A DNA stretch of 64,000 nucleotides from Pontiella desulfatans (GCF_900890425.1 NZ_CAAHFG010000003.1:1054001-1118000), one strand, 5' to 3'. Shown: positions 2,333-44,628, counted from the stretch's first letter. Notes: generated from the sequence alone by a model not told the origin. Translations and numbers: made by a program.

Positions 2333-2360
2333 TGTGGCCTCTTTACGAAAAGGATGAGTG

Positions 2361-3975: not shown

Positions 3976-4119
3976 ATGTGCCATCTTATGAAATTGCCCG
4001 GTGACGAATCTAACGAGCGGTTGGATGCGCTGATTTCAGGGGATGAAGAAGCGCAAGTCTACTACCTCAGGTTAGGAATACTCTTGCAGGAGTTGGAAAA
4101 CGAATTCCGCGGAGAATGA
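3976..4119 (+). pseudogene. short FecR/anti-sigma-like N-terminal fragment
   Basis: A 47-codon frame starts at ATG 3976 and stops at TGA 4117. The peptide contains LDALISGDEEAQVYYLRL, which resembles the N-terminal helix of FecR-type anti-sigma proteins common in PVC bacteria, where a short acidic LLDGEL-like segment precedes a transmembrane helix and FecR domain. Nothing of those later parts remains before the stop, and the next sulfatase starts 54 bases later. I infer a remnant of a sigma/anti-sigma pair that may once have controlled this cluster. A functional micro-protein is the alternative. Confidence 0.35.
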
Positions 4120-4134
4120 AAGATGACGGATGTG

Positions 4135-4154
4135 AGCCGACTTTTAGTCGGCAT
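4135..4154 (+). repeat. short inverted repeat in sulfatase leader
   Basis: GCCGAC, then TTTTA, then GTCGGC forms a small hairpin just upstream of the ribosome-binding site of the sulfatase starting at 4174. It could modulate translation or be chance; its stem is only six pairs. Confidence 0.3.
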
Positions 4155-4173
4155 GGAAAGAATAAGGCACGTA

Positions 4174-6555: not shown

Positions 6556-6665
6556 AGAAACTGTTGGTCGCCCTAAGCTTACTTTCCAATACCGTGCTAC
6601 CTGCCGCCCAGTCATGGTTCGGTAACGAGCATTGTACCGAAAAGGGGAGATGGTCCTATGCATAG
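6552..6665 (+). CDS. 37-residue signal-peptide ORF, possible truncated secreted protein
   Basis: This small frame starts at ATG 6552, overlapping the GH16 stop (ATGA), and ends at TAG 6663, overlapping the start of the next sulfatase at 6658. The peptide begins with a convincing signal sequence (MKKLLVALSLLSNTVLPAAQ) and then has only SWFGNEHCTEKGRWSYA. The two overlaps mean it is translationally coupled on both sides. It is probably the stump of a secreted enzyme whose body was deleted, kept because it links translation of its neighbours. A real short secreted peptide with one Cys is less likely. I do not recognise a family. Confidence 0.45.
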   Translation: MKKLLVALSLLSNTVLPAAQSWFGNEHCTEKGRWSYA

Positions 6666-8097: not shown

Positions 8098-8117
8098 CCT
8101 ATAGAAAGAGATGAAAT

Positions 8118-10298: not shown

Positions 10299-10309
10299 AG
10301 GGGGGCTCT

Positions 10310-11722: not shown

Positions 11723-11730
11723 GGATTGGT

Positions 11731-19879: not shown

Positions 19880-20377
19880 GACGATCTCCTGCTTAATGTT
19901 TCGATTTGCAATGCCCTCATACAAAGAGGGCGTTTCAAACCGGCAGACCCGAAGTTTCCCCCGAAGTCTGGTCCGGTGCAGGTAGATAAAGAAATGTTTC
20001 CTATTCGCAACATACTTTAGGTAAGTGCTTTACAGTAGATGTCTTGGTCGGATTCACCCCGTCATCCGTTTGAATTGCCATCCTGATCGTACCGATCCGA
20101 ATGGAGAGTCATTTTTAGAAGGTTCGCATCGCTATCCAACCGGGCCGACCATTTTTTCTAACGGCGAACTCAATGCGAGTTCGCCTTTTTCATTTTTACG
20201 CGAGTTTTCCCCAGTAAATGCGGTATTCGCCACGTTCTCCTCCTTTTCAAAACCCCAGTACCTAATGTCTGTTGCTGCCTTTTTAGCAACATTTCTCCGC
20301 TCGCTCTCCGTTTCTCTGCGAGTTCGACCCCTGTTTTTTCGACTGGTAGGCTTTCTAGATGGAAAAGCGAACTTTTT
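19880..20377. other. intergenic region between integrase and Fic gene
   Basis: No tRNA or convincing gene is visible. A + strand frame at 20025-20390 lacks a ribosome-binding site and crosses a terminator. The right attachment site of the element probably lies here, upstream of the integrase, but I found no direct repeat matching the left side. Confidence 0.35.
20163..20190 (+). terminator. Rho-independent terminator
   Basis: A nine-pair perfect stem, GGCGAACTC and GAGTTCGCC, with loop AATGC, is followed by TTTTT at 20186-20190. It points along the + strand although no + strand gene ends nearby, so it may terminate a small RNA or a transcript left from before the element inserted. Confidence 0.65.
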
Positions 20378-20450
20378 GGGCTATATATAGCTTTTATATA
20401 GCCCATATAATGATTATATATGAGCTATATTAAAAGGGGCTATAGCTCAT
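20378..20450 (+). promoter_or_regulatory. promoter and two nested inverted repeats controlling the Fic gene
   Basis: A perfect -10 box TATAAT is at 20406-20411. A ten-base inverted repeat GGGCTATATA/TATATAGCCC (20378-20404) covers the -35 to spacer region. A second, ATGAGCTATA/TATAGCTCAT (20420-20450), covers the expected transcription start and the first two bases of the ATG at 20449, with AAAAGGGG as ribosome-binding site in its spacer. Both share the half-site GRGCTATA. This looks like a repressor operator; the RNA form could also hide the start codon. Confidence 0.65.
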
Positions 20451-21564
20451 GAAATGGAATTGGGAACTGCCGGACTGGCCAAATTTTGAATATGATAAAT
20501 CTGCGTTTGCGGCGATGGAGTCCAGGTTTCTGACTTCATCGGGTATTTTGTTGGGCTCTTACAAACACCTTGATGAGAGTGAGAAAACTGCACTCAAAAT
20601 TGAGCTGATGAGCGAGGAAGCACTGAAGACGTCGGAGATAGAAGGGGAATACCTGAATAGGGAGAGTCTGCAATCCTCGATTCGGCATCAGTTTGGGCTG
20701 CCGACGGAGCATGGCCGGATTCCTCCGGCGGAGCAGGGCGTCGCGGAAATGACGGTCAATCTTTACGAAACCTGGAAGAAGGCGCTGTCTAACAAAGTTC
20801 TGTTTAAATGGCATTCCCTGCTTATGAGCGGCCGACGTGATATTGTTGATGCAGGCTGTTATCGGACATCCGGCGATCCAATGCAGGTGGTGTCCGGTCA
20901 CGTTGGTAAACGTAAGGTGCATTTTGAGGCTCCGCCATCGGATCGGATGCAGCCGGAGATGAATGGTTTCATACAGTGGTTCAACCAAACTGCACCAAAC
21001 GGTGAGCAGCCGTTGTCTGCCTTGATTCGGTCGGGTATCGCTCATCTCTATTTTGTGAGCATTCATCCGTTTGAAGACGGCAATGGCCGGGTTGGCCGCG
21101 CCATATCCGAGAAAGCCCTTTCGCAGAACCTAGGGCAGCCAACGTTGATCGCATTGGCACGAACTATCGAAGCCAAACGAAAAGATTACTATGCGGCGTT
21201 GGAGCGTGCGAATCGGAAGCTGGAAGTTACTGAGTGGCTTCATTATTTCGCTGAGACCATTTTGGAGGCGCAGGCTTACACGATCCGGTGCGTTGATTTT
21301 CTCATCGAGAAGGCTCGTTTCTTTGATCGCTTGGGTGATCAATTGAACGCCCGTCAGCATAAGGTTCTCGTTCGTATGTTTGCCGAGGGGTTGGAAGGGT
21401 TTAAAGGCGGCTTAAGTGCCGAAAACTACATCAGCATTGCCAAGACCTCCGCATCGACCGCGACACGTGATCTTAAGGATTTGGTGGAGAAGGGCGCGCT
21501 ATCCCGCACCGGCGAACTCAAACACACCCGATATCATCTGAACATGCAGAGTTTCCAATCTTAA
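20449..21564 (+). CDS. Fic-domain AMP-transferase with N-terminal inhibitory helix and C-terminal winged helix
   Basis: A 371-residue Fic protein. The N-terminus resembles the DUF4172-type Fic extension and carries the inhibitory motif TSEIEG (Thr61, Glu65, Gly66), which in class II Fic proteins blocks ATP binding until relieved. The active-site motif HPFEDGNGRVGR begins at His206, and all residues needed for nucleotidyl transfer are present. A C-terminal winged helix (about 300-371, with SASTATRDLKDLVEKGAL) suggests DNA binding. Such proteins transfer AMP to Ser, Thr or Tyr of target proteins; the target is unknown. The inverted repeats over its start suggest self-regulation. A degraded HipA fragment lies downstream, so the area has a toxin-antitoxin flavour. 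Confidence 0.88.
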   Translation: MKWNWELPDWPNFEYDKSAFAAMESRFLTSSGILLGSYKHLDESEKTALKIELMSEEALKTSEIEGEYLNRESLQSSIRHQFGLPTEHGRIPPAEQGVAEMTVNLYETWKKALSNKVLFKWHSLLMSGRRDIVDAGCYRTSGDPMQVVSGHVGKRKVHFEAPPSDRMQPEMNGFIQWFNQTAPNGEQPLSALIRSGIAHLYFVSIHPFEDGNGRVGRAISEKALSQNLGQPTLIALARTIEAKRKDYYAALERANRKLEVTEWLHYFAETILEAQAYTIRCVDFLIEKARFFDRLGDQLNARQHKVLVRMFAEGLEGFKGGLSAENYISIAKTSASTATRDLKDLVEKGALSRTGELKHTRYHLNMQSFQS

Positions 21565-26349: not shown

Positions 26350-27288
26350 ATGATCAAAGCTGTTGATTTGGTCAAGGACTTCGGGAAACGGCGCGCAGTC
26401 GATGGCGTGTCGTTCGAAGTCGAGAAGGGAACCGTGCTGGGTTTCCTGGGGCCGAACGGCGCCGGGAAGACCACCACGATCCGCATGGTGGCTGGATTCC
26501 TTCCGCCCACCGAAGGCAATGTGTTCGTCAAGGGCATCAATGTGGCCAGCGATCCCGTCGCCGCCCAGAAAAGCATCGGCTACATGCCCGAAACCACGCC
26601 GCTCTACGAGGACATGACCGTATCCGGTTTCCTACGCTTCCTCGCCGAGGTGCGCGGATTCAGCGGAACCGAGCGCAACAGCCGGGTCGAGCGCGCCATC
26701 GAACGCTGCTTCCTGCATCCGGTGCGCAACCAAACGATCGACACCCTGTCGAAGGGCTACCGGCAGCGCACCTGCCTTGCGCAGACGCTGCTGCACGATC
26801 CCGACATCCTGCTGCTCGATGAGCCGACCGAGGGGCTCGACCCCAACCAGAAACAGGTGGTGCGCGACATGATCAAGGAGATGGCTTCCGAGCGCGTCGT
26901 GATGCTTTCGACCCACGTGCTCGAGGAGGTCGAAGCCATTTGCACCCGCGCCATTATCATCAGCGCCGGAAAGGTCGTGGCCGACGATACCCCCGCCGCG
27001 CTCAAGGCGCGCAGTCCCAAATACAACGCCGTCACCCTCACCGCCGAAGGCGAGGGCATTGCCGACAAGCTCGGCAAGCTGCCGGGCGTCAAGGAAGTCC
27101 ATGCGCTGGAGGATGGCAAGATTGTCGCGTTCCCCAAGGCCGGCAAGTCCATTGCCGCCGACGTGCTCGGAACCGCCCAGCAAAACCAATGGAAGGTTTC
27201 CGATATCAAGGTCGATGAAGGCCGGTTGGACGATGTCTTCCGCCAGATCACCAGCACCGAAGATTCCAAGAAAAAGGAGGTGGCCTGA
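26350..27288 (+). CDS. ABC transporter ATPase, GldA-like
   Basis: A 312-residue ATPase with AAGGAG eleven bases upstream of the ATG. Walker A GPNGAGKTT is at 34-42, the signature LSKGYRQR at about 134-141, Walker B ILLLDEPTEGLD near 154-165 and the switch STHVLEE near 187-193. The extra C-terminal region (about 220-312) is typical of ABC-2 export ATPases. It pairs with the permease that starts on its last base and with the GldG-like and DUF4340 proteins downstream. In Bacteroidota such genes relate to gliding, but in PVC bacteria the substrate is unknown. Confidence 0.9.
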   Translation: MIKAVDLVKDFGKRRAVDGVSFEVEKGTVLGFLGPNGAGKTTTIRMVAGFLPPTEGNVFVKGINVASDPVAAQKSIGYMPETTPLYEDMTVSGFLRFLAEVRGFSGTERNSRVERAIERCFLHPVRNQTIDTLSKGYRQRTCLAQTLLHDPDILLLDEPTEGLDPNQKQVVRDMIKEMASERVVMLSTHVLEEVEAICTRAIIISAGKVVADDTPAALKARSPKYNAVTLTAEGEGIADKLGKLPGVKEVHALEDGKIVAFPKAGKSIAADVLGTAQQNQWKVSDIKVDEGRLDDVFRQITSTEDSKKKEVA

Positions 27289-28034
27289 TGAACGAATCAA
27301 CCTCCCATGTTCTCGCCATCGCCAAGCGTGAATGGCGCGCCTATTTCGACTCGCCGGTGGCCTATGTCTTCATCATCATTTTCCTGATGCTGGCCGGGTT
27401 CTTCACCTTCTCGCTTGCGCAATTCTTCGAGGCGGGGCAGGCGAGCCTGAACGGCTTCTTCACGTGGCATCCGTGGCTCTACATGATCCTCGTGCCCGCC
27501 GTGGCCATGCGCCTCTGGGCGGAGGAGCGGCGGTCGGGCACCATCGAGCTGCTCTTCACGGTATCCGTCACGCCGCTGCAGGCGCTGCTCGGCAAGTTTG
27601 CCGCCGCGTGGCTCTTCATGCTGTTGGCGCTGACACTCACCTTGCCGGTTCCGATGACCGCCGCCTACCTCGGCTCGCCCGACATGGGTTCCATTGTTTC
27701 CGGCTACATCGGCAGCGGCCTGTTGGCCGGTGCCTATGTCGCCGCCGGCATGTTCACTTCCGCCCTAACGCGCAACCAGGTGATCAGCTTCATCCTGGCC
27801 GTGGTGATTGGCCTGTTCCTGATCCTGGCAGGCTACCCGCCGGTGACTGATCTCCTGGCGCGTTGGGCACCCATGTGGCTGGTCGACGGCGTCGCCTCGT
27901 TCAGCTTCATGCCGCACTACGAAGCCTTGCAACGCGGGGTCATCGACCTGCGCGACCTCGTCTACTTTGCATCGGTGATGGTCTTCATGCTCTTCGCCAC
28001 GCAGGTTGTTCTGAAAAACAAAGTCGGCAGGTAG
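27288..28034 (+). CDS. ABC-2 type permease, GldF-like
   Basis: A 248-residue membrane protein with six predicted helices. The N-terminus AIAKREWRAYFDSPVAYVFI is typical of ABC-2 permeases of the GldF group, and the RLWAEERRSGTIELLFTV segment is the conserved cytoplasmic coupling motif. Its ATG overlaps the stop of the ATPase gene (TGATG), so translation is coupled. It would form the membrane channel for the ATPase before it. About 95 bases separate it from the GldG-like gene. Confidence 0.9.
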   Translation: MNESTSHVLAIAKREWRAYFDSPVAYVFIIIFLMLAGFFTFSLAQFFEAGQASLNGFFTWHPWLYMILVPAVAMRLWAEERRSGTIELLFTVSVTPLQALLGKFAAAWLFMLLALTLTLPVPMTAAYLGSPDMGSIVSGYIGSGLLAGAYVAAGMFTSALTRNQVISFILAVVIGLFLILAGYPPVTDLLARWAPMWLVDGVASFSFMPHYEALQRGVIDLRDLVYFASVMVFMLFATQVVLKNKVGR

Positions 28035-28129
28035 GGGGTGGCCACGAAGGAACGCAAAGAAAACAAAGACCCTTCTTTTGCGGTCTCTGCGCTCTCTTGT
28101 GGCAAATAATTCCAGAAAGGATTTTAGAC

Positions 28130-29965
28130 ATGAACCAGATGAAAAAAATGACCGGCCTGGCGGGCGTGCTGCTTTTGCTGGGCATATTGATCGCCTTCAA
28201 CGCGGTGCTGCGCCCGATACGGATGCGCGCCGACGTGACGGAGGACAAGCTCTACACGCTCTCCGAGGGAACCAAGCTGCTGCTGGGCGAGCTGGAGCGC
28301 GATGTGACGCTGAAGTTTTACTTTTCCAAGAGCAACGACCGCCTGCCGGTGCCGATGAAAAATTTTGCGGCGCGCGTGCGCGACCTGCTCAAGGAATACG
28401 AGTCGCGCTCCGGCGGCTACCTCGTGCTCGAGGAATACGACCCGAAGCCCGACTCCGACGAGGAAGAGTGGGCGCAACGCTACGGCCTGCAATCGCAGGC
28501 GCTCGATATGTTCGGTATGGGGGGCGGGCTCTATTTCGGCATCGTCGCCGTTTCCGGCAACCGCGAGGCGGCCATCCCGATGCTCGCGCAGAGCGCCGAG
28601 CCGCGGTTGGAATATTTGCTGACCCGCATGGTTTCCGAAGTGTCTACGGAAAAGTCCGCCAAGGTCGGAATCATGAGTGCGCTTCCGGTGAACGGTTCCA
28701 TGCCGTCGAATCCCTACATGATGCAGCAGGCCGGCGGTTCGCGAAAGTGGGCGGTTGTTTCCGAAATCGAGCGGCAGTACGAGGTGGAGGGAATCGATAT
28801 GACGGCCACCAACATTGCTTCGGACATCGATACGCTAATAGTCATCCACCCGGCGGACATCTCCGACGACGCGCTCTATGCCATCGACCAGTTCGTGCTG
28901 CGTGGCGGCCGTCTGCTGGCCTTCACCGACCCGATGAGCATCACCGCCCAGGAGAGCGCCAATCCGCAGCAGATGCAGATGGGTATGCCGCCCCCGCAAG
29001 GGGCATCCGATCTCAACCGCTTGACCTCCGCCTGGGGCATCGAAATGACGCCCGGTCAACTGGCGGCCGACGAGTCGGCGGCGAGCCTGCTCAATGCCGG
29101 CGGCGGACGTGCCCAGCGCAACGCCACCTGGCTGTCGTTGCGCACTGCGCACATCAACCGCGACGATATTGCCACCGGTTCCCTCAACGAAATGATGATG
29201 CCGTTCGCCGGGGCGTTCGCGGTGTCCGCCAGCAATGGGGTTGACGTGGCCGAACTCGTCTTTACCGCAGACGACGGCTTCACCGCCGGCACCATGGCCG
29301 CCCGCTCGGGACGCGTTGATATTCCGTCGGCCAAAAAGCGCGTGCCGCTGGCGTTGCGGGTAACCGGCTCGTTCAAGACGGCGTTCCCGGATCGGGACGG
29401 CGGTCTCAAGCAGGCCGAAAAGCCCGGTGTTGTGATTCTCGTTTCGGATGTCGATATGCTGGCCGACCGCATTGCGACCGACAGCATGAACTTCATGGGG
29501 CAGACCATTGTGCAACCGCGCAACGACAACCTGACGTTCGCCGTCAACATGGTTGAACAGCTGTGCGGCAGCGAGGCGCTCATCGGCCTGCGCAGCCGTA
29601 ATTCGTTCGACCGGCCGTTCGACCGGGTGATCCAAATGGAAAAGGAGGCCGCCTTCAAATGGCAGGCCGAGGAGCAGCGGCTGAATGCCGAGCTGCAAGC
29701 CACGCAGGCCAAGCTGTCGCAGCTCCAGCAGACGCGCGACGACGGCCAGCAAATGTTCCTCAGCCCGGAGCAGGAGGCCGAGCTCAAGAAGTTCCGCGAA
29801 CAGGTTTTCCAGACCCAGCAGTCGCTTAAGGAGGTGCGCAAGAACCTGCGGCGCGATATCGAAATGCTGGGTGTGCGCCTGAAGGCCATGAACATTGTCG
29901 GCATCCCGATCCTCGTCGCCATCTTTGGCATTGCACGCGGACTCTGGCTCAAGAAAACGAGGTAA
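28130..29965 (+). CDS. GldG-like ABC-associated protein
   Basis: A 611-residue protein. ATG 28130 with AAAGGA at 28115-28121 is the supported start. A transmembrane helix spans about residues 8-27, followed by the GldG-like region RADVTEDKLYTLSEGTKLLL, a large extracytoplasmic part, a coiled coil (about 500-575, EEQRLNAELQATQAKLSQLQ) and a C-terminal helix (about 585-608). This layout, next to ATPase, permease and DUF4340 genes, defines the GldG-like group. It probably links the transporter to its extracytoplasmic substrate. The Gln/Met-rich loop near residue 285 (NPQQMQMGMPPPQ) is unusual. Confidence 0.87.
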   Translation: MNQMKKMTGLAGVLLLLGILIAFNAVLRPIRMRADVTEDKLYTLSEGTKLLLGELERDVTLKFYFSKSNDRLPVPMKNFAARVRDLLKEYESRSGGYLVLEEYDPKPDSDEEEWAQRYGLQSQALDMFGMGGGLYFGIVAVSGNREAAIPMLAQSAEPRLEYLLTRMVSEVSTEKSAKVGIMSALPVNGSMPSNPYMMQQAGGSRKWAVVSEIERQYEVEGIDMTATNIASDIDTLIVIHPADISDDALYAIDQFVLRGGRLLAFTDPMSITAQESANPQQMQMGMPPPQGASDLNRLTSAWGIEMTPGQLAADESAASLLNAGGGRAQRNATWLSLRTAHINRDDIATGSLNEMMMPFAGAFAVSASNGVDVAELVFTADDGFTAGTMAARSGRVDIPSAKKRVPLALRVTGSFKTAFPDRDGGLKQAEKPGVVILVSDVDMLADRIATDSMNFMGQTIVQPRNDNLTFAVNMVEQLCGSEALIGLRSRNSFDRPFDRVIQMEKEAAFKWQAEEQRLNAELQATQAKLSQLQQTRDDGQQMFLSPEQEAELKKFREQVFQTQQSLKEVRKNLRRDIEMLGVRLKAMNIVGIPILVAIFGIARGLWLKKTR

Positions 29966-34305: not shown

Positions 34306-35289
34306 ATGACGTGGAGTCCGACAGAGCTGGTGCTTTCTCCGGAAAGTATCAAGAAATTGGCCGAAGTGGAGCAGTTGATCGGGAAAGTGGAGGGGATGCA
34401 GCTTTCCCGCCCGGTTCCGAAGCTACGCCAAAAGAACCGCGCAAAATCCATTCGGGGATCCACCGGGATAGAGGGGAACAGCTGTTCCGTTGAGCAGGTT
34501 GAGGCGATCGCCGATGGCCAGCCGGTCGCTCTATCAAAAAAGGAGCAGTTGGAGATCCGCAATGCTCTTGAGACCTACGATGCGTTGCCGTCCTTCGATC
34601 CGGTTTCGATTGCTTCTCTTTTGGATGCGCAACGGATGCTGATGGGGAACGGGCTGTTGCTGGTGCCCGGAAGGTTCCGGCAGGGGCCGGTCGAGGTTTA
34701 TGTAACCGAAACGGAAACCCTTCGCCTGCCGTCGTGGAAAACCGTGGAGCCTTCCGTGCAGGCTCTCTTTGACGACCTCGAAAACGGCGCGGAGCTAATG
34801 CTGATTTCATCGATCCGTTTCCATTTCGAATTTGTGGGCATCCATCCGTTCTCGGATGGAAATGGCCGGATGGCCCGTCTGTGGCAGACGCGGTTATTGA
34901 TGGAGGAGCATCCTGTCTTTGAATTCCTTGATGTGGAGTCGATGGTGTTTGACCGGCGCGAAGAATACTACAGGCAGATTCGGCGGGCGCAGGAGTGCGG
35001 AAATGTGGACGGCTTTGTGTTGTTCATGCTCGAGCAGATCCGGCGTTCGCTGGAAAGCCTATGGGAAAGCAGTGCACCTGGGCGGAACACCTTTGCGGAT
35101 CGGATTTCCATTGCACAGCAGACCTTCGGGGAAGACTTTTTTTCAAGAAAGGATTACATGCGTCTGTTCAAGACCGTTTCGCCGGCCACGGCGAGCCGCG
35201 ATTTGTCCGCCGGTGTTTCCTCCGGTGCGCTGGAGCGGGAAGGCGACAAACGCACCGCGGTATATCGGTTTAGGCCAATCAATGGTTGA
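34306..35289 (+). CDS. Fic-domain AMP-transferase with N-terminal inhibitory motif
   Basis: A 327-residue Fic protein, not closely similar to the one at 20449. The inhibitory motif STGIEG (Ser52, Glu56, Gly57) places it in class II, and the active-site motif HPFSDGNGRMAR starts at His180 with all catalytic residues kept. A C-terminal winged helix (about 265-327) includes SPATASRDLSAGVSSGAL. It is predicted to AMPylate an unknown protein and to autoregulate through the DNA-binding tail. Its promoter is unusual: the palindrome, -10 box and ATG lie within 40 bases. It stands alone between rsmA and the PspA-type operon. Confidence 0.88.
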   Translation: MTWSPTELVLSPESIKKLAEVEQLIGKVEGMQLSRPVPKLRQKNRAKSIRGSTGIEGNSCSVEQVEAIADGQPVALSKKEQLEIRNALETYDALPSFDPVSIASLLDAQRMLMGNGLLLVPGRFRQGPVEVYVTETETLRLPSWKTVEPSVQALFDDLENGAELMLISSIRFHFEFVGIHPFSDGNGRMARLWQTRLLMEEHPVFEFLDVESMVFDRREEYYRQIRRAQECGNVDGFVLFMLEQIRRSLESLWESSAPGRNTFADRISIAQQTFGEDFFSRKDYMRLFKTVSPATASRDLSAGVSSGALEREGDKRTAVYRFRPING

Positions 35290-35460: not shown

Positions 35461-36171
35461 ATGATTTTCGGAAAGAAAAAGGGCAAGGAAGAACCGGTGC
35501 CGGTGTTCGCGAAGGACGATCCGGATTTCTGGCGCTCGATCCCGGTGGGCAGTGCGGTTTCGTTAACCGACGAAGCGGCCATCGAAGAGGCGATGCGCAT
35601 TGGCGTCGGGGTTTCGGGGCTCGACTATGAAGTCACGGTGGCCGAAGTTGTTCGCGACCTGGGAAAAAATGCCGAGTGGTGGTTCTACTATATCGAGGGC
35701 CACAAGACCGAAAACCTGTGGCTGATGGTCAAGATCGTTGGTGCGGACATTGTTCCGATCGTCTATTTCGAGGTGGAGGATTTTCCGCCAACGCTACGCA
35801 GCCGCCTGGTGGCCGACGGGCTGGTCTGGATGTTTGAAAAGGGCGAGGTGGGCGGTGCGCCGCATGCGCCGGTTTTTGCCTCGGACATTTTCCAGACGCT
35901 GGAGGACGCGGATGGCGACGAATACGAAGTCCATTATCGCCAAAAGCCGCAGGGCACCGTCTATGGCCGCTATTCGCGCGTTCCCGCCGATGCCGGGCTG
36001 AGCGATGTCTTCATGGCCTTTAGCGAATACGAAGCCGACGAGTCGTTCGAGAACCCGGAGCTGCTGGTGATGGAAAAGGGCGGCGAGGATGATCCGGCGG
36101 GCGGGTTGGTCAGTCTCTATGTGGGCGGGATCACGGTGTTCAACGATATTGAGGTTTTGAGGAGCTGCTGA
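35461..36171 (+). CDS. DUF2491 family protein (YjfK-like)
   Basis: A 236-residue soluble protein, probably DUF2491. The front is a short basic segment (MIFGKKKGKEE), then VFAKDDPDFWRSIPVGSAVS, then a long mixed alpha/beta region with acidic DGDEYEVHYRQKP and the end GGLVSLYVGGITVFNDIEV. I assign it from gene order (DUF2170, PspA and DUF350 follow) and overall character. In E. coli the equivalent yjfK lies in yjfIJKLMC. Its function is not known. AGGGA nine bases before the ATG is the ribosome-binding site. It is the first gene of the ten-gene operon. Confidence 0.7.
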   Translation: MIFGKKKGKEEPVPVFAKDDPDFWRSIPVGSAVSLTDEAAIEEAMRIGVGVSGLDYEVTVAEVVRDLGKNAEWWFYYIEGHKTENLWLMVKIVGADIVPIVYFEVEDFPPTLRSRLVADGLVWMFEKGEVGGAPHAPVFASDIFQTLEDADGDEYEVHYRQKPQGTVYGRYSRVPADAGLSDVFMAFSEYEADESFENPELLVMEKGGEDDPAGGLVSLYVGGITVFNDIEVLRSC

Positions 36172-36207
36172 TGCAGCAGGAAATTAACAACGAAAGCGAG
36201 GTTCGGA

Positions 36208-36657
36208 ATGGTAGATAAGATCGAAACATTGGAACAGGTGGCAGGGGTGTTGGAATCGCAGGGCTATGATGCCCGGTTGGTTTCCGGCGAAGCGGTCATG
36301 GTGGATGTCGGCGGTTCGGAGCATCCGTTCGCGGCGGTCGTTACCAAGAACGACAATGGCGCCGAGTTTGTGCTGACCTGCCAGTTGGCCACGCTGGGCG
36401 ATATCGAAGAAGACCTCTCCGCCCAGTTCATGCTGGCGGCGTTGGATGCCAATACGGCGATCCGGCCGTTCGCCTTCGCGGTCATCAGCGATACGGACGA
36501 TCCGGCCCTGGCCGAGCCCGAGCAATGGCCCGTGGTGCTGACCTCCAGCATTCCCGTCGGCGATCTCTCCGAAGGGGAACTCTGCGTGGCGATGGACGGG
36601 CTGTGGAGCGCGCTGACCGCCGCCGCCCCGGTGCTGAAGCTTGGAATCACAAAATAA
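36208..36657 (+). CDS. DUF2170 family protein (YjfI-like)
   Basis: A 149-residue soluble protein matching DUF2170: an N-terminal helix (KIETLEQVAGVLESQGYDA), then a beta-rich core with VVTKNDNGAEFVLTCQLATL, LSAQFMLAALDANTAIRPFA and VLTSSIPVGDLSEGELCVAM. The fold is reminiscent of type III secretion chaperones. In E. coli yjfI is next to the PspA-like yjfJ. GAGG eight bases before the ATG is the likely ribosome-binding site. It lies between the DUF2491 gene and the PspA gene, 26 bases from the latter. Function unknown; a chaperone or adaptor for PspA is plausible. Confidence 0.75.
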   Translation: MVDKIETLEQVAGVLESQGYDARLVSGEAVMVDVGGSEHPFAAVVTKNDNGAEFVLTCQLATLGDIEEDLSAQFMLAALDANTAIRPFAFAVISDTDDPALAEPEQWPVVLTSSIPVGDLSEGELCVAMDGLWSALTAAAPVLKLGITK

Positions 36658-36683
36658 CCGTTTGGAATAGAAGGAGTAGAATC

Positions 36684-37367
36684 ATGGCAAGTTTATTCAA
36701 GGCAATTTCGAATGTAGTGCGCGGCGCGAAGGATGATTTGGCCAAGTCGATGGCCGATCCGGTGCGGGATGGAAAGATTGCCATCGCCGACAGCGAAAAG
36801 CAGGTGGCGGAATTCACCACCAAGATCGCTTCGTTGGTCGCGGAAAACAAGCGGCTGATCAAGCAGCGCGACGAAGCGGCCGAGGAGGTCGAAAAGTTCA
36901 CCCGCATTGCCCAGAAGGCGGCGCAGGCCGGCAACGAGGCGGACGTCCGCTCGGCGCTGGAAATGAAAACCCGCGCGGACGAGCGCGTGGCTTCGTTGAC
37001 CGCCGAGGTGGCCAAGAGCGAGCAGCTCACGTCGATGCTGCGCGACCAGCTGGGCAAGGCGCGTGCCAAGGTGGCGCAGGCCAAGAGCAACATGACCCGC
37101 ATGTCGGCCCGCGTCGAAGGCGCCAAGATCCGGACGGAACTGGCAAAGGCTTCGTCCGAATTCAACGCCGGAAACAGTCCGCTGGGTGCGCTGGACGACC
37201 TGGAAAAATCCGTGCAGGAAAAGGAGAGCGAAGCGGAGGCCTGGGAAGAAATGGTCGGCATGGAAAACCAAGGCAGTGCCGCCGACCTGGCATCCAAATA
37301 CGATACTCCTGCAAGCGCGCTGGACGATGAAGTCGCCAAGCTCATGGCAGCCAACAAAAAGGGATAA
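36684..37367 (+). CDS. PspA/IM30 family protein (YjfJ-like)
   Basis: A 227-residue coiled-coil protein of the PspA/Vipp1 family, which assembles on the inner membrane to keep it sealed under stress. The start SLFKAISNVVRGAKDDLAKS is the PspA-type amphipathic front; a nearly unbroken coiled coil covers about residues 40-190 (VAENKRLIKQRDEAAEEVEK and on) and ends in AASKYDTPASALDDEVAKLM. AAGGAG precedes ATG 36684 by seven bases. The E. coli counterpart is yjfJ rather than pspA itself. The partner genes suggest that it guards the membrane around the DUF350 protein and the channel. Confidence 0.88.
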   Translation: MASLFKAISNVVRGAKDDLAKSMADPVRDGKIAIADSEKQVAEFTTKIASLVAENKRLIKQRDEAAEEVEKFTRIAQKAAQAGNEADVRSALEMKTRADERVASLTAEVAKSEQLTSMLRDQLGKARAKVAQAKSNMTRMSARVEGAKIRTELAKASSEFNAGNSPLGALDDLEKSVQEKESEAEAWEEMVGMENQGSAADLASKYDTPASALDDEVAKLMAANKKG

Positions 37368-37372
37368 TTAAG

Positions 37373-37496
37373 AATGAAGATTTAAGAATGAAGAATGGTT
37401 GGTCTGTCGCCATTCTTCATGAACCACTCGCAAGCTCGTTATTTGCATGTGCAGATTATTTGCACTGCGCTTCGGCTGAATTCTTAAATCTTCATT
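37373..37496. repeat. inverted-repeat element B (MITE- or REP-like)
   Basis: Seventeen-base perfect inverted repeats (37373-37389 and 37480-37496) bound a 124-base element in the gap between the PspA and DUF350 genes. It shares with element A an exact 23-base core, here at 37384-37406 in the opposite orientation. It is the only large gap in the ten-gene operon and probably arrived by insertion. Confidence 0.72.
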
Positions 37497-37518
37497 TCTC
37501 CAAGCAAGGGGGCAGGAA

Positions 37519-38382
37519 ATGATCTATCTATCGTGGAGCCTGTATGCGGCGGTCTGGTTGGCTGTCGCTTTGGTGTTTTTGTTCGTTGCGAAAAAGCTGT
37601 TCGATCTGCTGACGCCATATTCGCTCGAAGTGCAGCTGACCGAAAAGGACAATCCGGCGGTTGGCCTGGTGCTGGGCGGTTTTCTGCTGGGGGTTGCGGC
37701 GGTTGTCTGCGGAACCTTTGCCGGGGAGTCGGGCGAAGTGTCGGTTGCCGGGTTTGCCGCCGACATTGGTTGGGTGGCGATCTATGTGGTGATCGGGATG
37801 GTGCTGCTGTTCTTCGCCGGCATCGTGAACGATAAGCTGGTCTTGCATCGCTTCCAGAACCAGCATGAGGTGGTGGAGGAACGCAACATGGGCGTCGCGG
37901 CCATCGTTGCGGCGACCTATCTCGGTTCCGGGTTGATTGTGGGCGGAGGCATTTCGGGGAGCTTCAGCCTGACGACGGCAATCCTGCCCTTCATTGCCGG
38001 CCAGATTGCGTTGGTGCTCTTCGCCCACCTCTACCAAATCCTGACGAAGCATGATGATTTGAAGGAGATCGGCGAAAATAAGAACGTTGCGGCGGGCGTG
38101 GCCTATGCCGGCAACATCCTGGCCTACAGCATCATCCTGATGAAGGGGGTGTCGATGGGCGGCGAGGGCATCGAGATGCGCATCGACCGGCTTTGGCATT
38201 TCCTCTACTACGCCGTGGCAGGCAGCATCCTGCTGTCGGTGGTTCGCATGGTTGCCGACCGTGTGTTCCTGCCGAAGGCGCGGCTGCACGACGAGATCGT
38301 TGAAGACCGGAACCTGGGCGCCGGATTTATTGAAGCGGGGTTGGCCTTGGCCACGGCCGCGGTTTTGGGTTTTTGCCTGTAA
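37519..38382 (+). CDS. DUF350 membrane protein, duplicated domain (YjfL-like)
   Basis: A 287-residue integral membrane protein with about eight helices. It holds two DUF350 units: residues about 1-140 ([20 protein letters not shown] and ERNMGVAAIVAATYLGSG) and about 150-287 (ENKNVAAGVAYAGNILAYSI and EDRNLGAGFIEAGLALA). The repeated E-x-N-x-G motif is the family mark and may bind a small ligand or ion. E. coli yjfL has one unit per chain. It follows the PspA gene after the palindromic element and is 12 bases before the next gene. Confidence 0.87.
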   Translation: MIYLSWSLYAAVWLAVALVFLFVAKKLFDLLTPYSLEVQLTEKDNPAVGLVLGGFLLGVAAVVCGTFAGESGEVSVAGFAADIGWVAIYVVIGMVLLFFAGIVNDKLVLHRFQNQHEVVEERNMGVAAIVAATYLGSGLIVGGGISGSFSLTTAILPFIAGQIALVLFAHLYQILTKHDDLKEIGENKNVAAGVAYAGNILAYSIILMKGVSMGGEGIEMRIDRLWHFLYYAVAGSILLSVVRMVADRVFLPKARLHDEIVEDRNLGAGFIEAGLALATAAVLGFCL

Positions 38383-38394
38383 GGGAGGTGGAGC

Positions 38395-39309
38395 ATGGAA
38401 ACGACTGAAAAAGTAATTGCCGGGGCATTTGTCACCGTAGTGGGGGTGAGCATGCTGGGGACGTGTTCCCGAAACCGTTCCACCCAGGAAGAGTACATCC
38501 GCTATTCTCCCCAGCCCGTTCCGGTTCCGCCGGCGGTGGATTCGGTGGATGTTCGCGCCGCCGAAGGCATCATCAACTTGAACGAAGTGCGCGACTCGTT
38601 CCGTGCGACGCACGAGATGGCCGTCTTCGAACAGCGCGTCAACGAAATCTACGAAGGCGAACAGATGGTCGTCTTCGAAGCGAAAGAGGTGGGCAATGGC
38701 TTCCAGCTCCTCGCCCGCGAGGATCTGGATGGAAGCAAAAGCACCACCGCGTCCGACGATCTGCTCTTCACGCTCAGCGTCATGGGACGCGAAGCCACGC
38801 TCAAGGGGCATGGCGCGAACGACTACTACAAGGAAACCTGGCTCTACGAACCGCCGGCCGATGCCGCGGAGCGCGTGCGCGAGGTGCACCACCACTCTTC
38901 GTTCGCCAGCTCGCCGTTTTTCTGGTGGTGGCTGCTGTCGCCGGGGTGGGGCGGCTACTACACCCCGATGGCGCGCTACGATTCCATGTATGCCTATCGG
39001 GGCGGCTATCGCAATTCGGGGGCCTACCGCGACCAGGTTTCGCGCAATACCAGCTATGCCCGCAGCAAGAGCTCCTCGTTCCGCAACACATCCAGCACGA
39101 TGTCGTCGCAACGCAAGAGCTATGTGAGCAAGATGCCCAGCACCTCGGGCTATAAGCAAAAGATGGCTGCATCGGCCCGCAAGACCGGCACCAGCGCCAA
39201 GTCGCAAACCCGTACATCGGGCACAAAGAGCGGCAGCTTCTCCGGTACGAGCAATAAAAGCAGTTCGTCGAAGGGCTATGGCGGGTTCCGCGGTTCGAGC
39301 GGCTTCTAA
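38395..39309 (+). CDS. membrane-anchored protein with Ser/Gly/Lys-rich tail
   Basis: A 304-residue protein of unknown family, in the position where E. coli has yjfM. A hydrophobic N-terminal segment (about 5-24, VIAGAFVTVVGVSMLGTC) could be a lipoprotein-like or membrane anchor. A globular part covers about 50-155, with INLNEVRDSFRATHEMAVFE and a beta-rich NGFQLLAREDL stretch. After an aromatic patch (SPFFWWWLLSPGWGGYY) the last 100 residues are almost only Ser, Thr, Gly, Lys, Arg and Tyr. The tail is poor in acidic residues and could be a modification substrate or an envelope-binding region. It overlaps the next gene by one base. Confidence 0.65.
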   Translation: METTEKVIAGAFVTVVGVSMLGTCSRNRSTQEEYIRYSPQPVPVPPAVDSVDVRAAEGIINLNEVRDSFRATHEMAVFEQRVNEIYEGEQMVVFEAKEVGNGFQLLAREDLDGSKSTTASDDLLFTLSVMGREATLKGHGANDYYKETWLYEPPADAAERVREVHHHSSFASSPFFWWWLLSPGWGGYYTPMARYDSMYAYRGGYRNSGAYRDQVSRNTSYARSKSSSFRNTSSTMSSQRKSYVSKMPSTSGYKQKMAASARKTGTSAKSQTRTSGTKSGSFSGTSNKSSSSKGYGGFRGSSGF

Positions 39310-40109
39310 TGGCGCCGCGCTACGCAAAGGAGATGCCGGGGGCGGAGCAGGTGCTTCGTCCCGGCAACCTGGCCGACTATGAAGGCGAGGCCTGGGACAT
39401 CCGTATCTCCGTTGGCGATGCCCCGTTGGATGAAGCCTTCTTTTTCCCGGTCGAATCGTTGGCCGACTCCGACCGGTCGGTGCGCGAACTGCTGGAGCAG
39501 TTTGCCCTGAATCCGGATCGCGAGGCCGAGCTGGATATCGACCACTATCCCGACCTCCCGTTCCTTCAGCAGGAGCTGGTTCAATTCTACGAGGCGGCCC
39601 GGAAAGGCCAATTCAACCTCAAGGTGTTCGTGAACCATGGGGAGGGTGAGTTGGATCTGGAATCTTCCGCCCGCGAGGTGCTGGCGAGCTGCACCTTCCG
39701 CAACCGCGCGTGGGACTATCTCGTCCTCGATCTGGTGTTCGAGGCCGAAACCGCATCGGCCGATTCCACGGCGGTTGAAGCCTTTGTTGGCCGGCATCAA
39801 AACAACGGGAGCCGCGAGGCGCTTCAAGGCGAGGCGGAAGCCTTGGCGGCCACCTATGAAAAGTTCGCTTCGGTATCGGTGGCCCCCTGCGCGCTCGGTG
39901 TGCCCGATGGCTTCGACGTCCGCCTGCAAATGATGGAGTTCGATGGGCTCGATCCCGAACGGTGCGTGTTGGCCATGCTGATGGCCGAGGGCGGGGTGGA
40001 ACTTGCCGAAGCCTTCGGGCCCGTCTGCCAGGCCCTCGCCTTCAAGACCAACTTCACCACAGAAATCTTGGAGGGGCTCAAGTCGCTTGAAGACGCTTCG
40101 ATTAGTTGA
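39309..40109 (+). CDS. unknown protein of the PspA/DUF350 operon
   Basis: A 266-residue soluble protein that I do not recognise. It starts on the last base of the previous stop (TAATG) and overlaps the next gene by 23 bases, so it is firmly part of the operon. It is acidic, has no signal peptide or membrane segment, and contains ELDIDHYPDLPFLQQELVQF and FVNHGEGELDLESS in its middle. Only two cysteines are present and no catalytic pattern is visible. It may be a partner subunit for the acetyltransferase-like protein that follows. Confidence 0.6.
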   Translation: MAPRYAKEMPGAEQVLRPGNLADYEGEAWDIRISVGDAPLDEAFFFPVESLADSDRSVRELLEQFALNPDREAELDIDHYPDLPFLQQELVQFYEAARKGQFNLKVFVNHGEGELDLESSAREVLASCTFRNRAWDYLVLDLVFEAETASADSTAVEAFVGRHQNNGSREALQGEAEALAATYEKFASVSVAPCALGVPDGFDVRLQMMEFDGLDPERCVLAMLMAEGGVELAEAFGPVCQALAFKTNFTTEILEGLKSLEDASIS

Positions 40110-41505
40110 CTTGCATGGCAACCGTTCCTCCTACGAGCTGTGCCTGCCCGATGGCATGGCGTGTTGGCAGGTGCAGTCGTTGCGCGACTATCTAGCCCTC
40201 GCTCCATCCGTCGCCCGCGAGCGGGGGTTCATGGCGGAGCCTCCGGGCCGTTTGCGGCACGAAACCCTGCGGCGATTGGTTGCGCATCCTTCTTCCGCAT
40301 TCCACCGCCCGGTACAATTTGTGCAGGATGGCGTCCTGCTCGACGACTTCGGCATAATTGATCTGCGGGATGCCGAGACCGAACTGCTGCTGGAGCGCGA
40401 CGAAACGGCTTCGCCGGGCAACCCCCGGTCGGTTTCGTTGGCCGAATGCAACCGGCGTGCATTCAAAGGGGCCGCGGCGGAAGTGGTTCGGTGCGTCGAT
40501 GCGCTGTTTGATTTCGAAACCCACCGGATCGAGGATCGCGGGGGGAGGCGAATGGGCTCCTTGTCGGAACTCTACGAAGGCTTTGCCGGCTTGCTCGACG
40601 AAGCCAACCAGCTCCGCTTTCTCTTTCGAGTGGCCGAGGTGGTGCATTCGCATCCATTCGAAAATATTTCGAAAATGGTCGAGGGGGTTCCGTTTTGTTC
40701 GGGCTGGGAAATGTGGGGGCGGATGCAGCAGGGCGGGGGCGGCATCTGTGCCGAAAAAACCGGTGCCCTAAAATTCATCTGCGATGTGCTTGGGGTTCCA
40801 ACCTTCTATGCCGCCGGTTCGCAATACACGATCCCGGACGATTACGAGCTGCAACTGAAGCGCTACATTGCATCGGAAGGCGATGCTCCGCAGCCCGTTT
40901 GGATCCAGCATCTGCTGCTGGGTTTCAAGATCGGTGGCAGGGAATATCTGGCGGATGTCTCGAACGGGAACCTGCCATTGCTGTTCCTGGCGGGGGCCGA
41001 CATGCACCGCTATCTGGCCGCCGGCTACCGGGCGCGCATGGTCTACCACGTGGAGCACATGAACCTGCGCCGCGTCTCCAACTGGGCGGGCGACGCGTTG
41101 TTGACCCTCTGCGAGTTCCATGTGCCCGACCTGCATTTCCAATATATTTTCGACCAGGCACTGGGCTTGCATATTTCACCGAAGGCCTATGTCGGGGCCT
41201 TCTTCGACTATGGCGGAATCCGCACCGCGCGCTACCAAGGCCACTACACGGCGCTCGCCGATGCACTCCGGCTGCCGTGCCCGCGCTTCATTCGCGAGGG
41301 CAACTTGCAAAGCGTGCCCGATGAGGCCTTGCGGGAAACCTTGTTCCGCGTGCTTGTGGCGTTGCGGGAGCACTATGCCAACCCGCACTATACCGGCGAC
41401 TTCACCTTCGTGGTGCAGCCCTTGGGTGGACGTTCGGTTCCCCCGCGCATCAGCCGCGCGGTGCGTGGTTATTTATGGAACCGAACAGAACATGAAGGGG
41501 TTTGA
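40087..41505 (+). CDS. arylamine N-acetyltransferase/transglutaminase-fold acyltransferase
   Basis: A 472-residue protein with a TTG start at 40087 preceded by GAGGGG; no ATG fits the overlap better. The front third (about 1-175) is unlike known NATs. The middle holds the family pattern: HPFENIS (189-195), GGGGICAEKTGAL with Cys221, WIQHLLLGF with His275 and YLADVSNG with Asp290. In arylamine N-acetyltransferases these form the Cys-His-Asp triad that carries an acyl thioester; transglutaminase-like cysteine proteases have the same triad. The gene lies before an adenylate-forming ligase, so I infer that it takes an activated acyl group and transfers it to an amine. Substrates are unknown. Confidence 0.7.
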   Translation: MKTLRLVDLHGNRSSYELCLPDGMACWQVQSLRDYLALAPSVARERGFMAEPPGRLRHETLRRLVAHPSSAFHRPVQFVQDGVLLDDFGIIDLRDAETELLLERDETASPGNPRSVSLAECNRRAFKGAAAEVVRCVDALFDFETHRIEDRGGRRMGSLSELYEGFAGLLDEANQLRFLFRVAEVVHSHPFENISKMVEGVPFCSGWEMWGRMQQGGGGICAEKTGALKFICDVLGVPTFYAAGSQYTIPDDYELQLKRYIASEGDAPQPVWIQHLLLGFKIGGREYLADVSNGNLPLLFLAGADMHRYLAAGYRARMVYHVEHMNLRRVSNWAGDALLTLCEFHVPDLHFQYIFDQALGLHISPKAYVGAFFDYGGIRTARYQGHYTALADALRLPCPRFIREGNLQSVPDEALRETLFRVLVALREHYANPHYTGDFTFVVQPLGGRSVPPRISRAVRGYLWNRTEHEGV

Positions 41506-42267
41506 ATGGAAACGATTTTAGGAGCGGCGCAACAGGCGTTTGACCGGGTGGGTTTTTTCCGTTTGCTTTATGGTGAACGGCCGGAGCGAACCGAAGCGGT
41601 TCCGTTTGTTGGAAGCACGCACTATTTCCGCGCGGAGGGGACGCTGGATTGCATCGATCCCGCGGTGGCGATTTGCGGGGCGTTGCCGCCGTTCCATCGC
41701 GGGTTCAGGCGGCTTCCTTTCACGGTGGTGGAGTCGGAGGCGGATATCGACCAGCGGCAGGAGCGGCTGGAGCGGGCGCTCGGGGATGTCGGCATTGCCG
41801 AAGAACCTTCCCGGCGGATGCTGATGATCACCAACGAAGCCAACGGCCCGTTCGCCTGCGATCTCTCGACCGGCCTGGGTTGGGAGGGGCACCCCGCCTC
41901 GATCCACTATTGGGGCGGAACCGAAGAGGAGCTCGGCTTCCAGCTTGCTGCGCATGAACCGGACTATGTGGTTTGGTGTTTGCCGCAGAACCCCACGGGC
42001 TTGCTGCCGTTCCCCGGCGAGCAAACCATCGTTGCCCACTGCATCGATGCCCCGTTGCCGGACTGGCAGGGCATGCTCTGGCTTTTCTGCGACGAAATCA
42101 ATCTGATCGGTTCGCGTCCCCCGGGGCGAACGGCCTTCCGGGTGGATTGGGAACAGCTTTTGATAGAAGCCGGCCATTCCGGCCGGCCGGCCATCACAAC
42201 CTTGAAGCACGAGGCCTTCCCGCTGGTGCGCTATGAACTCCCCAACGCCTTTGAGGTGCTCGTGTGA
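41506..42267 (+). CDS. unknown protein, possible degenerate adenylation domain
   Basis: A 253-residue soluble protein beginning directly after the previous stop. It has no clear database-type motif. Its last part, RPAITTLKHEAFPLVRYELP, lines up with the end of PaaK/LuxE-type ligases (where the pattern is TTL, PL, RYR-GD), but the key Asp is replaced and no P-loop (SSGS-T) is visible. A WQGMLWLFCDEINLI segment could correspond to the Y-TE motif. I infer a degenerate, non-catalytic relative of the ligase encoded next, which would make a hetero-dimer. It overlaps the ligase gene by four bases (the GTGA at its stop). Confidence 0.5.
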   Translation: METILGAAQQAFDRVGFFRLLYGERPERTEAVPFVGSTHYFRAEGTLDCIDPAVAICGALPPFHRGFRRLPFTVVESEADIDQRQERLERALGDVGIAEEPSRRMLMITNEANGPFACDLSTGLGWEGHPASIHYWGGTEEELGFQLAAHEPDYVVWCLPQNPTGLLPFPGEQTIVAHCIDAPLPDWQGMLWLFCDEINLIGSRPPGRTAFRVDWEQLLIEAGHSGRPAITTLKHEAFPLVRYELPNAFEVLV

Positions 42268-43553
42268 ACCTCGAATGGATCCAGCACGAAAACTCGCTGA
42301 CCTTGGTCGATAAAGGGGAGCATTCCGCCCTCGTGGTGGAGCGCTTCCTGCGGCATCTGTTTCAAACCTCGCGGTTCTACCGAAGGCAAATCGAAGAAAC
42401 CGGGGTTCCACTGGATGCTCCGTTCGAACTGCTTTCCCGCATGCCGGTCTCCTCCAAGGAAGACTATCGCGACGCCCTGCAAACCGAGGCCTTGCAGACC
42501 CTGCATGCGCGCCCGTTCATCAGCGACTACAGCTCCGGCTCCACCGACAAATGCGTGCTGCGCTTTTCGTCGGTTGCAGAGGAGTTGGCCGAGTTGGAGA
42601 TTACCGAAACCGTGTTCCGCCGCGCGGGCATGGGGGCGGGCGACCGCTTTGTTTGCCTCGAAGTGGGGGCGCCGGAAATATACGACTTCTATTTCCGCGC
42701 CGCGCGCAACATCGGCGCCGCCCAGACGACCTATATCAAGGTGACCAGCCACTATGCCGCATCGTTCGCCCCGCTGTTGCGGTTGGAACCCACGGTGATC
42801 CTCTCCTTGCCGAGCCTGATGGTCAAGGCCTGGCCCTACATACGCGACCATTGGCCGAAGGGGGCGTCGCCGGTCAAGTCGTTCATCCACATGGGCGAGG
42901 CCATGCATCCCGACCTGAAGCGGGAGATTGAAACGGTGTGGGGTTGCAAGGTTTATTCCTTTTACGGGACGACGGAACTCGGCGGCATGGGCGGCGAATG
43001 CATCCATGGCAACGGGTGCCATTTCGACCCCCGCATGGTTTGCCCAACGCTCGGCAATCCAAGCGAGCTTTCCCCGGGCCTATTCGAAGGCGAAGGATAT
43101 TTCACGACGCTCCATTTCCGGAGCCAGGCGGTGGTCAAATACCGTGCGGGCGATGTGGTGCAGCTCGATCTCAACCCCTGCCCCTGTGGCGAGGACTCGC
43201 CGCGGTTGCGCTTTGTCGAACGTACCGCCGATAGCTTCATTATCACCGGCGACAAGTTCCGCTACGAAACCGTCTTCAATGCCCTGCGCAAGGCGGTGCC
43301 TGAGATCGATTTGTTGACCATCCGGCTCGACGACATCCCGGGTTCCGACAAGGCCCGCATCACGCTGGTGTTGCCGAAGGCCGCCGAATCCCGGCGGGAA
43401 CGCATCGCCGAAACCCTGCGCCGGGGCATCTTCGAACTGGACGCGGTGTTCCACTATGGATTTGCCGAATTCGAGCTGGAGTTTGTTTCGCCGGAGGCGT
43501 TCGGCGAACGAAAGATGAAGCGTGTCGTTGATGCAAGGAAGTATTTCTCGTAA
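42264..43553 (+). CDS. PaaK/LuxE-type adenylate-forming acyl ligase
   Basis: A 429-residue ANL-superfamily-like ligase of the phenylacetate-CoA ligase/acyl-protein synthetase group, starting at a GTG or ATG in the overlap with the previous gene. The P-loop SSGSTDKC is at 90-97, the Y-G-T-T-E core motif at 234-238 and the YRAGD motif with the ribose-binding Asp297 at 293-297. It would convert a carboxylate to an acyl-adenylate and pass it to a thiol. Four Cys near 310 (NPCPCGEDS) are a zinc-type turn also seen in PaaK. It follows a NAT-like protein whose Cys could accept the acyl group. Confidence 0.8.
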   Translation: MNLEWIQHENSLTLVDKGEHSALVVERFLRHLFQTSRFYRRQIEETGVPLDAPFELLSRMPVSSKEDYRDALQTEALQTLHARPFISDYSSGSTDKCVLRFSSVAEELAELEITETVFRRAGMGAGDRFVCLEVGAPEIYDFYFRAARNIGAAQTTYIKVTSHYAASFAPLLRLEPTVILSLPSLMVKAWPYIRDHWPKGASPVKSFIHMGEAMHPDLKREIETVWGCKVYSFYGTTELGGMGGECIHGNGCHFDPRMVCPTLGNPSELSPGLFEGEGYFTTLHFRSQAVVKYRAGDVVQLDLNPCPCGEDSPRLRFVERTADSFIITGDKFRYETVFNALRKAVPEIDLLTIRLDDIPGSDKARITLVLPKAAESRRERIAETLRRGIFELDAVFHYGFAEFELEFVSPEAFGERKMKRVVDARKYFS

Positions 43554-43587
43554 AACGTTTGGAAGTGGCCAAAGGCAAGGTGGGGTT

Positions 43588-44628
43588 ATGGTTCAATTGT
43601 TGATGATGATCTTTAGGCGGTTCGCCGTGCTGCGCTCGGTGCAGGTGCTGCGCGTCTGCATCGTCTTTTTCGCTTTGCTGCTCTATGCAACGGCGGGATA
43701 CCGCTACTTCGAAGGACGGGTGAACCCGGACCTCGGTTGGGGCGATTCCCTCTGGTGGGCGATTGTTACCATGACCACGGTTGGCTACGGCGACCTTTAT
43801 CCCAGCACCGCCGCCGGCCGCTTCCTGGTCGGGTTCCCGACCATGCTGCTGGGCGTCAGCATCCTGGGCTATGTGCTTTCCGTGGTGGCGACCGCGATGG
43901 TGGAATCTAGATTGAAGGAGATCAAAGGCATGAACGATATCGAATTGAACAACCATATTCTCATCTGCAACTTTGCCGGCCTCGAAAAAACATTGCAGTT
44001 GATCCATGAAATCCGCCAGGACGAATCCACGCGCGAGGCCCATGTGGTGATTATCGACGAACAGCTCGACGAGCTTCCCCCGGAACTCCAGCAGCAGGAG
44101 AATGTCCATTATGTGAAAGGCTCGCCGGCACGCGAAAGCACGCTCGAGAAAGCAAACATGGCTGGCGCCCGCGCGGTCATCCTGCAGGCCGATCCGTCCC
44201 GACCGAAGGAGTCCGACATTGCCAACCTCCGTGCGGCGCTCACCATCGAAACCCTTTGCCCGGAAATCTTCAGCTGCGTGGAATGCATCGACCCCGACAG
44301 TGCCGTGTTTTTCGAGCGCGCCAACTGCGACAGTGTGGTTTGCATTGCAACGCTATCCGGGCAGATGGTTGTGCAGGAGCTGCAGGATCCCGGCGTCTCC
44401 GCCGTGGTTGCCGAGCTGACCTCCAACCGGCACGGCCGGCAATTCTATCTCGTTGACGTTGCGCAGGGATGCAGCGACTTCAAGGCGGCGAAAGCCCATT
44501 ACGATAACGACGAGACCCTGTTGATGGGCATCCGCCGCAAGGAGGAAAATATTCTGCTTCCCAAGCCGGGCTTCAAGCTGGAACCCGGCGACCGCGCCGT
44601 ACTCGTGGCCGCCACGCGGCCCGCATAA
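43588..44628 (+). CDS. potassium channel with RCK (TrkA-N) domain
   Basis: A 346-residue channel of the two-helix type. Helix 1 spans about residues 20-40, the pore loop carries the selectivity filter TMTTVGYGD (61-69) and helix 2 spans about 76-97. A TrkA-N/RCK ligand-binding domain follows (NNHILICNFAGLEKTLQ; the usual glycine-rich G-x-G-x-x-G motif is degenerate) and a TrkA-C-like end with ILLPKPGFKLEPGDRAVLV. ATG 43588 with AAGG before it is better supported than the ATG at 43522 inside the ligase gene. As the last gene of the PspA/DUF350 operon it suggests that the system controls K+ flux under membrane stress. Confidence 0.88.
   Translation: MVQLLMMIFRRFAVLRSVQVLRVCIVFFALLLYATAGYRYFEGRVNPDLGWGDSLWWAIVTMTTVGYGDLYPSTAAGRFLVGFPTMLLGVSILGYVLSVVATAMVESRLKEIKGMNDIELNNHILICNFAGLEKTLQLIHEIRQDESTREAHVVIIDEQLDELPPELQQQENVHYVKGSPARESTLEKANMAGARAVILQADPSRPKESDIANLRAALTIETLCPEIFSCVECIDPDSAVFFERANCDSVVCIATLSGQMVVQELQDPGVSAVVAELTSNRHGRQFYLVDVAQGCSDFKAAKAHYDNDETLLMGIRRKEENILLPKPGFKLEPGDRAVLVAATRPA

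Follow-up and report, generated by a model that had tools for sequence, protein, structure and literature searches.

A variant DUF350/PspA operon of Pontiella desulfatans with a candidate amide-forming enzyme set

A stretch of 64,000 nucleotides from Pontiella desulfatans (GCF_900890425.1, NZ_CAAHFG010000003.1:1054001-1118000; hereafter the window) contains ten co-directional open reading frames (p1 to p10) at 35461-44628 on the + strand, joined by overlaps or short gaps except between p3 and p4. This operon is a variant of the known DUF350/PspA operon kind with a different enzyme set. Its first three genes encode p1 (35461-36171), a conserved partner matched to no family; p2 (36208-36657), a small chaperone-type protein of predicted CesT/Tir fold (YbjN/DUF2170-like); and p3 (36684-37367), which belongs to a distinct subfamily of PspA/IM30 (PF04012, E = 9e-17). 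They are followed by p4 (37519-38382), a membrane protein with a duplicated DUF350 (YjfL family, type with eight transmembrane segments, 8TM; PF03994, E = 2e-52); p5 (38395-39309), a lipoprotein-like protein of 304 residues, with a lipobox-like Cys in its signal and a Ser/Lys-rich tail ending in GGFRGSSGF; and p6 (39309-40109), a conserved member of the module without family or PDB match. The remaining genes encode p7 (40087-41505), a predicted transferase resembling arylamine N-acetyltransferases (NATs); p8 (41506-42267), a degenerate PaaK-like adenylation protein; p9 (42264-43553, GTG start), an adenylate-forming ligase of the PaaK/FlxY type; and p10 (43588-44628), a K+ channel with a TVGYGD filter and an RCK/TrkA_N domain. 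Overlaps amount to 1 nt (p5/p6), 23 nt (p6/p7) and 4 nt (p8/p9), and p8 begins directly after p7. At E ≤ 1, Pfam returned no match for p1, p2, p5, p7 and p8 and a chance-level match only for p6; a resemblance of p6 to MoaE (E = 0.19) was judged to be chance and gains no support from the p6 homolog.

The original prediction for this locus, made from the sequence alone, had named a PspA-like protein, a DUF350 protein, a Cys-His-Asp triad of NAT or transglutaminase type, a degenerate adenylation domain, a PaaK/LuxE-type ligase and a K+ channel with RCK domain, all of which are borne out. Two of its other assignments are not: p1 is not recognizable as DUF2491 (no Pfam match; hhalign to E. coli YjfK, E = 0.39), a weak hint of DUF4178 (E = 0.019) coming from one p1 homolog only, and p5 has no detectable relation to YjfM/DUF1190. 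The body of p5 is instead akin to lipoproteins of spermidine-synthase-type DUF350 operons (L045, E = 9e-5; L053, E = 5e-4). For p2, the proposed DUF2170 identity fails by sequence (no match to DUF2170/YjfI) and holds at fold level only: an AlphaFold model built from seven homologs (predicted local distance difference test score, pLDDT, 80) matched CesT/Tir-fold proteins in Foldseek, namely SpcU, CesT, DR_1245 and BacA (8q8o), with template modelling scores of 0.63-0.70. BacA is a DUF2170 protein that adjoins a PspA (PMC10948618).

Genes 4 to 10 are a conserved block. A distant genome (G450, locus L070) carries them in the order p4-p5-p6-p7-p8-p9-nuclease-p10, with E values from 1e-50 to 2e-160 (p4, E = 1e-101; p5, 41% identity; p6, E = 1.2e-56 and 43% identity; p7, 46% identity; p9, 54% identity; p10, E = 6e-135). 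The additional gene between p9 and p10 encodes a staphylococcal-nuclease-like protein (PF00565; L070:7315-7980). A third p7 homolog (37% identity) lies in genome G454, on a 3.9-kb contig (L067), where it is followed after 2 nt by a decarboxylase gene of the Orn/DAP/Arg type (L067:73-1227), which among NCBIfam models scores best against that for carboxynorspermidine decarboxylase (nspC-like; TIGR01047, 239 bits). These two genomes supplied the only strong p7 matches among the 198 genomes of G233's class; no p7 homolog was found in the genus mates or the others of 146 relatives, in the remainder of 388 phylum-wide genomes, or in plasmid, viral or genome-contig collections, one viral scan being steered by randomised p7 copies with the motif windows kept. 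At E ≤ 1e-30, G450 was the only one of the same 198 genomes to yield p9, though the absence of p9 from G454, which is 83% complete, is not firm. A NAT-like gene and a ligase gene beside PspA were encountered only in the present genome, which taken literally tells against the original prediction, yet L070 demonstrates that the module also exists elsewhere.

The PspA block (p1-p3) is a unit separable from p4-p10. Together with a DUF350 gene, p1-p2-p3 occur in Lentisphaerales (L049), Victivallales (L044/L050), Ca. Hatepunaea (L054) and G454 (L078), and p1-p3 also occur in a metagenome-assembled genome (MAG; L051); a different Ser-rich protein stands alongside them in L049, L044, L051 and L054. 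No p6-p9 were found at L049, L044/L050, L054, L078 or L051, some of these sequences ending soon after p3. In Poribacteria (L053), relatives of p2 and p3 lie in one operon with genes for a DUF350 protein, an amine oxidase and a spermidine synthase. Conversely, p1-p3 are not beside the p4-p10 block of L070, and the only PspA match of G450 is weak and distant and adjoins PspC-like genes. The proposal that the module acts under PspA control is not supported as a general rule, because p1-p3 occur elsewhere without p6-p9 and are absent from L070. In the window, the single unbroken operon once envisaged stands as regards co-direction, overlaps and short gaps, and is broken by a 151-nt gap between p3 and p4 (37368-37518). 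The gap holds a perfect 17-nt inverted repeat (37373-37389 and 37480-37496; no strand) within an element (37368-37497) with 17-nt arms and an inner 11-nt stem that resembles a miniature inverted-repeat transposable element (MITE) or a repetitive extragenic palindrome (REP). This element sits exactly at the border of p1-p3 and p4-p10 and suggests that the two blocks were joined secondarily.

The start of p7, a TTG at 40087, is backed by a homolog. Residues C221, H275 and D290 are invariant in all three p7 proteins, as are PFEN and GG.C.EK (37-46% identity among the homologs), with an identical motif spacing of 101 residues that was matched by none of 200,000 shuffles. A profile of the p7 family aligned with ten NATs at E = 2e-5, placing C221, H275 and D290 on C69, H107 and D122, whereas five unrelated profiles and the reversed sequence all gave 0.04 or worse. 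The sequence thus predicts a NAT-like transferase with the FEN motif, GG.C.E and a Cys-His-Asp triad in order, the same PFEN, GG.C.E, H, D signature as in the arylamine N-acetyltransferase and amide synthase family (PF00797; RifF, GdmF). It differs from that family in having no significant Pfam match (against PF00797, p7 itself gave none and the best homolog reached only Acetyltransf_2 E = 0.15, below cutoff) and in p7-only extensions of about 180 N-terminal and about 175 C-terminal residues, neither of which matches NATs. A reading of the N-terminus as glycogenin was discarded, its PDB matches (E = 0.016 or worse) being unspecific.

The ligase p9 is an AMP-binding protein (Pfam) that aligns end to end with a PaaK profile (E = 3e-46). 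It keeps most of the adenylation motifs, with A3, A5, A7 and A10 represented (SSGST at 90, YGTTE at 234, GD at 296-297 and the terminal Lys417), and these are conserved in L070 apart from the A3 lysine. Over its length, the p8 protein aligns with an adenylation-domain profile; hhalign gave E = 4.4e-4 across 230 columns, and neither the controls nor the reversed sequence did better than 0.1. It is a full-length PaaK relative in which the adenylation motifs are replaced and which stops after the A7 region, before the C-terminal lid. Both resemble ligases of the PaaK/FlxY/DVU1553 type. They differ in that an apparently active and a degenerate member are paired here beside a NAT-like enzyme, and in that p9 shares at most 32% identity with its phylum-sample relatives, the L070 ortholog aside.

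The closest operon class, the 'third group' of Ravi et al. (2024), combines a CesT/Tir-fold protein and PspA with a GspS-type ATP-grasp enzyme and the same other partners, as in E. coli yjfIJKLMC (PMC11237479). Its resemblance to the window's operon is extensive: here too PspA (p3) adjoins a CesT/Tir-fold protein (p2), DUF350 (YjfL) lies in the same operon as PspA, a lipoprotein-like tail protein and a K+ channel are present, and a predicted bond-forming enzyme follows the tail protein. In contrast to that group, however, DUF350 is double (8TM), p1 is not recognizable as DUF2491, PspA and the enzyme block can occur apart, and p6-p9 stand in place of the ATP-grasp enzyme. The absence of YjfC noted in the original prediction extends to the whole genome, in which no YjfC-type ATP-grasp (GSP_synth, PF03738) was detected while the E. 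coli positive control was. YjfC and YgiC are described as peptide-spermidine ligases (Pederick 2023, as cited in PMC12568646). The 'second group' (L042, L043, L045 and L053) comprises CesT/Tir-PspA, a membrane spermidine synthase, 8TM DUF350 and DUF4178 (PMC11237479). It shares with the present operon the 8TM DUF350, a p5-type lipoprotein (L045, L053), a p10-related K+ channel (L043) and relatives of p2 and p3 (L053), but lacks p6-p9, whereas the present operon has no spermidine synthase or SpeD family among its ten proteins. Genes for spermidine synthase, SpeD or amine oxidase are found in related DUF350/PspA operons, and the sister operons are described as attaching or making polyamines through GspS-type ATP-grasp, spermidine synthase, SpeD and polyamine oxidase (PMC11237479). 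No earlier description of this operon variant was found in the open-licence literature, so a prior report is possible.

The reading we favour, tentatively and at somewhat less than an even chance, is that p5-p9 form an ATP-dependent amide-forming module replacing the enzymes that ligate polyamines (ATP-grasp) or make them (spermidine synthase) in other DUF350/PspA operons, the amine being most likely a polyamine. As its adenylation motifs indicate, p9, aided by its non-catalytic relative p8, would adenylate a carboxylic acid; given the triad of p7, the acyl group would then pass to Cys221 as a thioester and on to an amine. The nspC-like gene next to the p7 homolog of G454 fits the polyamine idea, as do the polyamine genes of the related operons. 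The product would act at the membrane with the DUF350 protein p4, the lipoprotein-like p5 and the RCK-gated K+ channel p10. All of this chemistry is inferred, as are the identities of acid and amine and the effect on physiology. PspA control apart, the original prediction that acyl activation and thiol transfer replace the ATP-grasp step is in keeping with a module that lies at the ATP-grasp position and recurs in a distant genome with conserved gene order and triad, no YjfC-type enzyme having been found in the present genome. Two distant genera carry a set of four unrelated enzyme genes, whose products probably form the same kind of bond by another route. Envelope-stress (PspA/DUF350) operons carry polyamine-joining enzymes, and the occupation of the enzyme slot by unrelated proteins whose predicted chemistry is analogous suggests that what these operons require is a product of amide type and not a particular protein family. 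The genes p5-p9 are a small, testable set with a named candidate substrate tail (p5).

Several observations weigh against this proposal. The NAT match was obtained with p7 profiles of three sequences, in Pfam the marginal scores of the p7 homologs place Transglut_core (E = 0.006-0.011) slightly ahead of Acetyltransf_2 (E = 0.15), and an AlphaFold model of p7 from one sequence was unusable (pLDDT 36). The p7 family is rare, with three strong genomes across all searches, two of which are fragmented or contaminated MAGs of low quality (G450, 14.1 Mb with 9% contamination; G454, incomplete as given above). The A3 lysine that follows SSGST in p9 is not kept in L070, the nspC-like gene scores below the equivalog cutoff, and the window's own operon is without a polyamine gene.

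Among the alternatives, the one that survives best, though unlikely, is a small-molecule pathway in which p9 and p7 would N-acylate a non-polyamine amine (e.g. an amino acid or ethanolamine) and the RCK channel would sense the resulting signal or lipid. The PaaK and NAT families mostly use aryl or fatty acyl substrates, and the nearest p9 relatives in the phylum lie in aryl-polyene-like clusters, both of which speak for such a pathway; however, neither operon has a carrier protein, ketosynthase or exporter, and the nspC-like neighbour and the sister operons favour polyamines. A role of p9 as a secondary-metabolite ligase was rejected, the aryl-polyene-like clusters being without p6-p8.

A quite improbable alternative makes the tail of p5 the substrate: p9 and p8 would activate its C-terminal carboxylate (GGFRGSSGF) and p7 would pass the tail to a polyamine, two enzymes thereby doing the work of a peptide-spermidine ligase. 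The p5 gene lies directly upstream of the enzyme genes in both operons, and the C-terminal GGFRG.SGF is kept in both copies while the Ser-rich linker is not. The lipoproteins of p5 type in L045 and L053 likewise terminate in GGF motifs, GGF occurs in the YgiB tail 30 residues before the end and GGY in the YjfM tail, and tail proteins of these last two types are encoded beside peptide-spermidine ligases. The GGF/GGY tails are a lead, not proof. Such short motifs carry little weight in Gly/Ser-rich tails, GGF arising in 0.3-0.5% of shuffled tails. In addition, the lipobox-like signal should take the p5 tail out of the cytoplasm, where p7-p9 reside, and to our knowledge no PaaK-type ligase adenylates a protein C-terminus. 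About as improbable is the fullest version, a relay of an adenylating ligase and a cysteine transferase of NAT fold by which a polyamine would be attached to the C-terminal tail of a membrane lipoprotein; it would resemble an E1-E2 pair in logic without being related to one, and would replace the ATP-grasp peptide-spermidine ligase by convergence. Least likely of all is a transglutaminase-type p7 that puts polyamines onto glutamines, or crosslinks or clips p5, while the ligase pair serves another step: transglutaminases and NATs have a Cys-His-Asp core in common and two p7 homologs score best in Pfam against Transglut_core (E = 0.006 and 0.011), but the NAT-specific PFEN and GG.C.E signature is invariant with NAT-like spacing, and both operons couple p7 to a ligase of the acyl-activating kind.

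An anti-phage defence role for the operon was also rejected, PADLOC having given only coiled-coil cross-matches of PspA. Elsewhere in the window, two Fic-domain proteins are encoded, one at 20449-21564 (with DUF4172) and one at 34306-35289, directly upstream of the operon. Further upstream lie open reading frames resembling a gliding-type ABC transporter (ATPase and permease; 26350-29965) and, on the minus strand where G+C content shifts, a tyrosine recombinase of the phage integrase family (18569-19924), a possible mobile-element border. An array of at least five Pfam-confirmed sulfatases with sulfatase-like and glycosidase-like open reading frames between them (944-13323) is probably a cluster for the degradation of sulfated polysaccharides.

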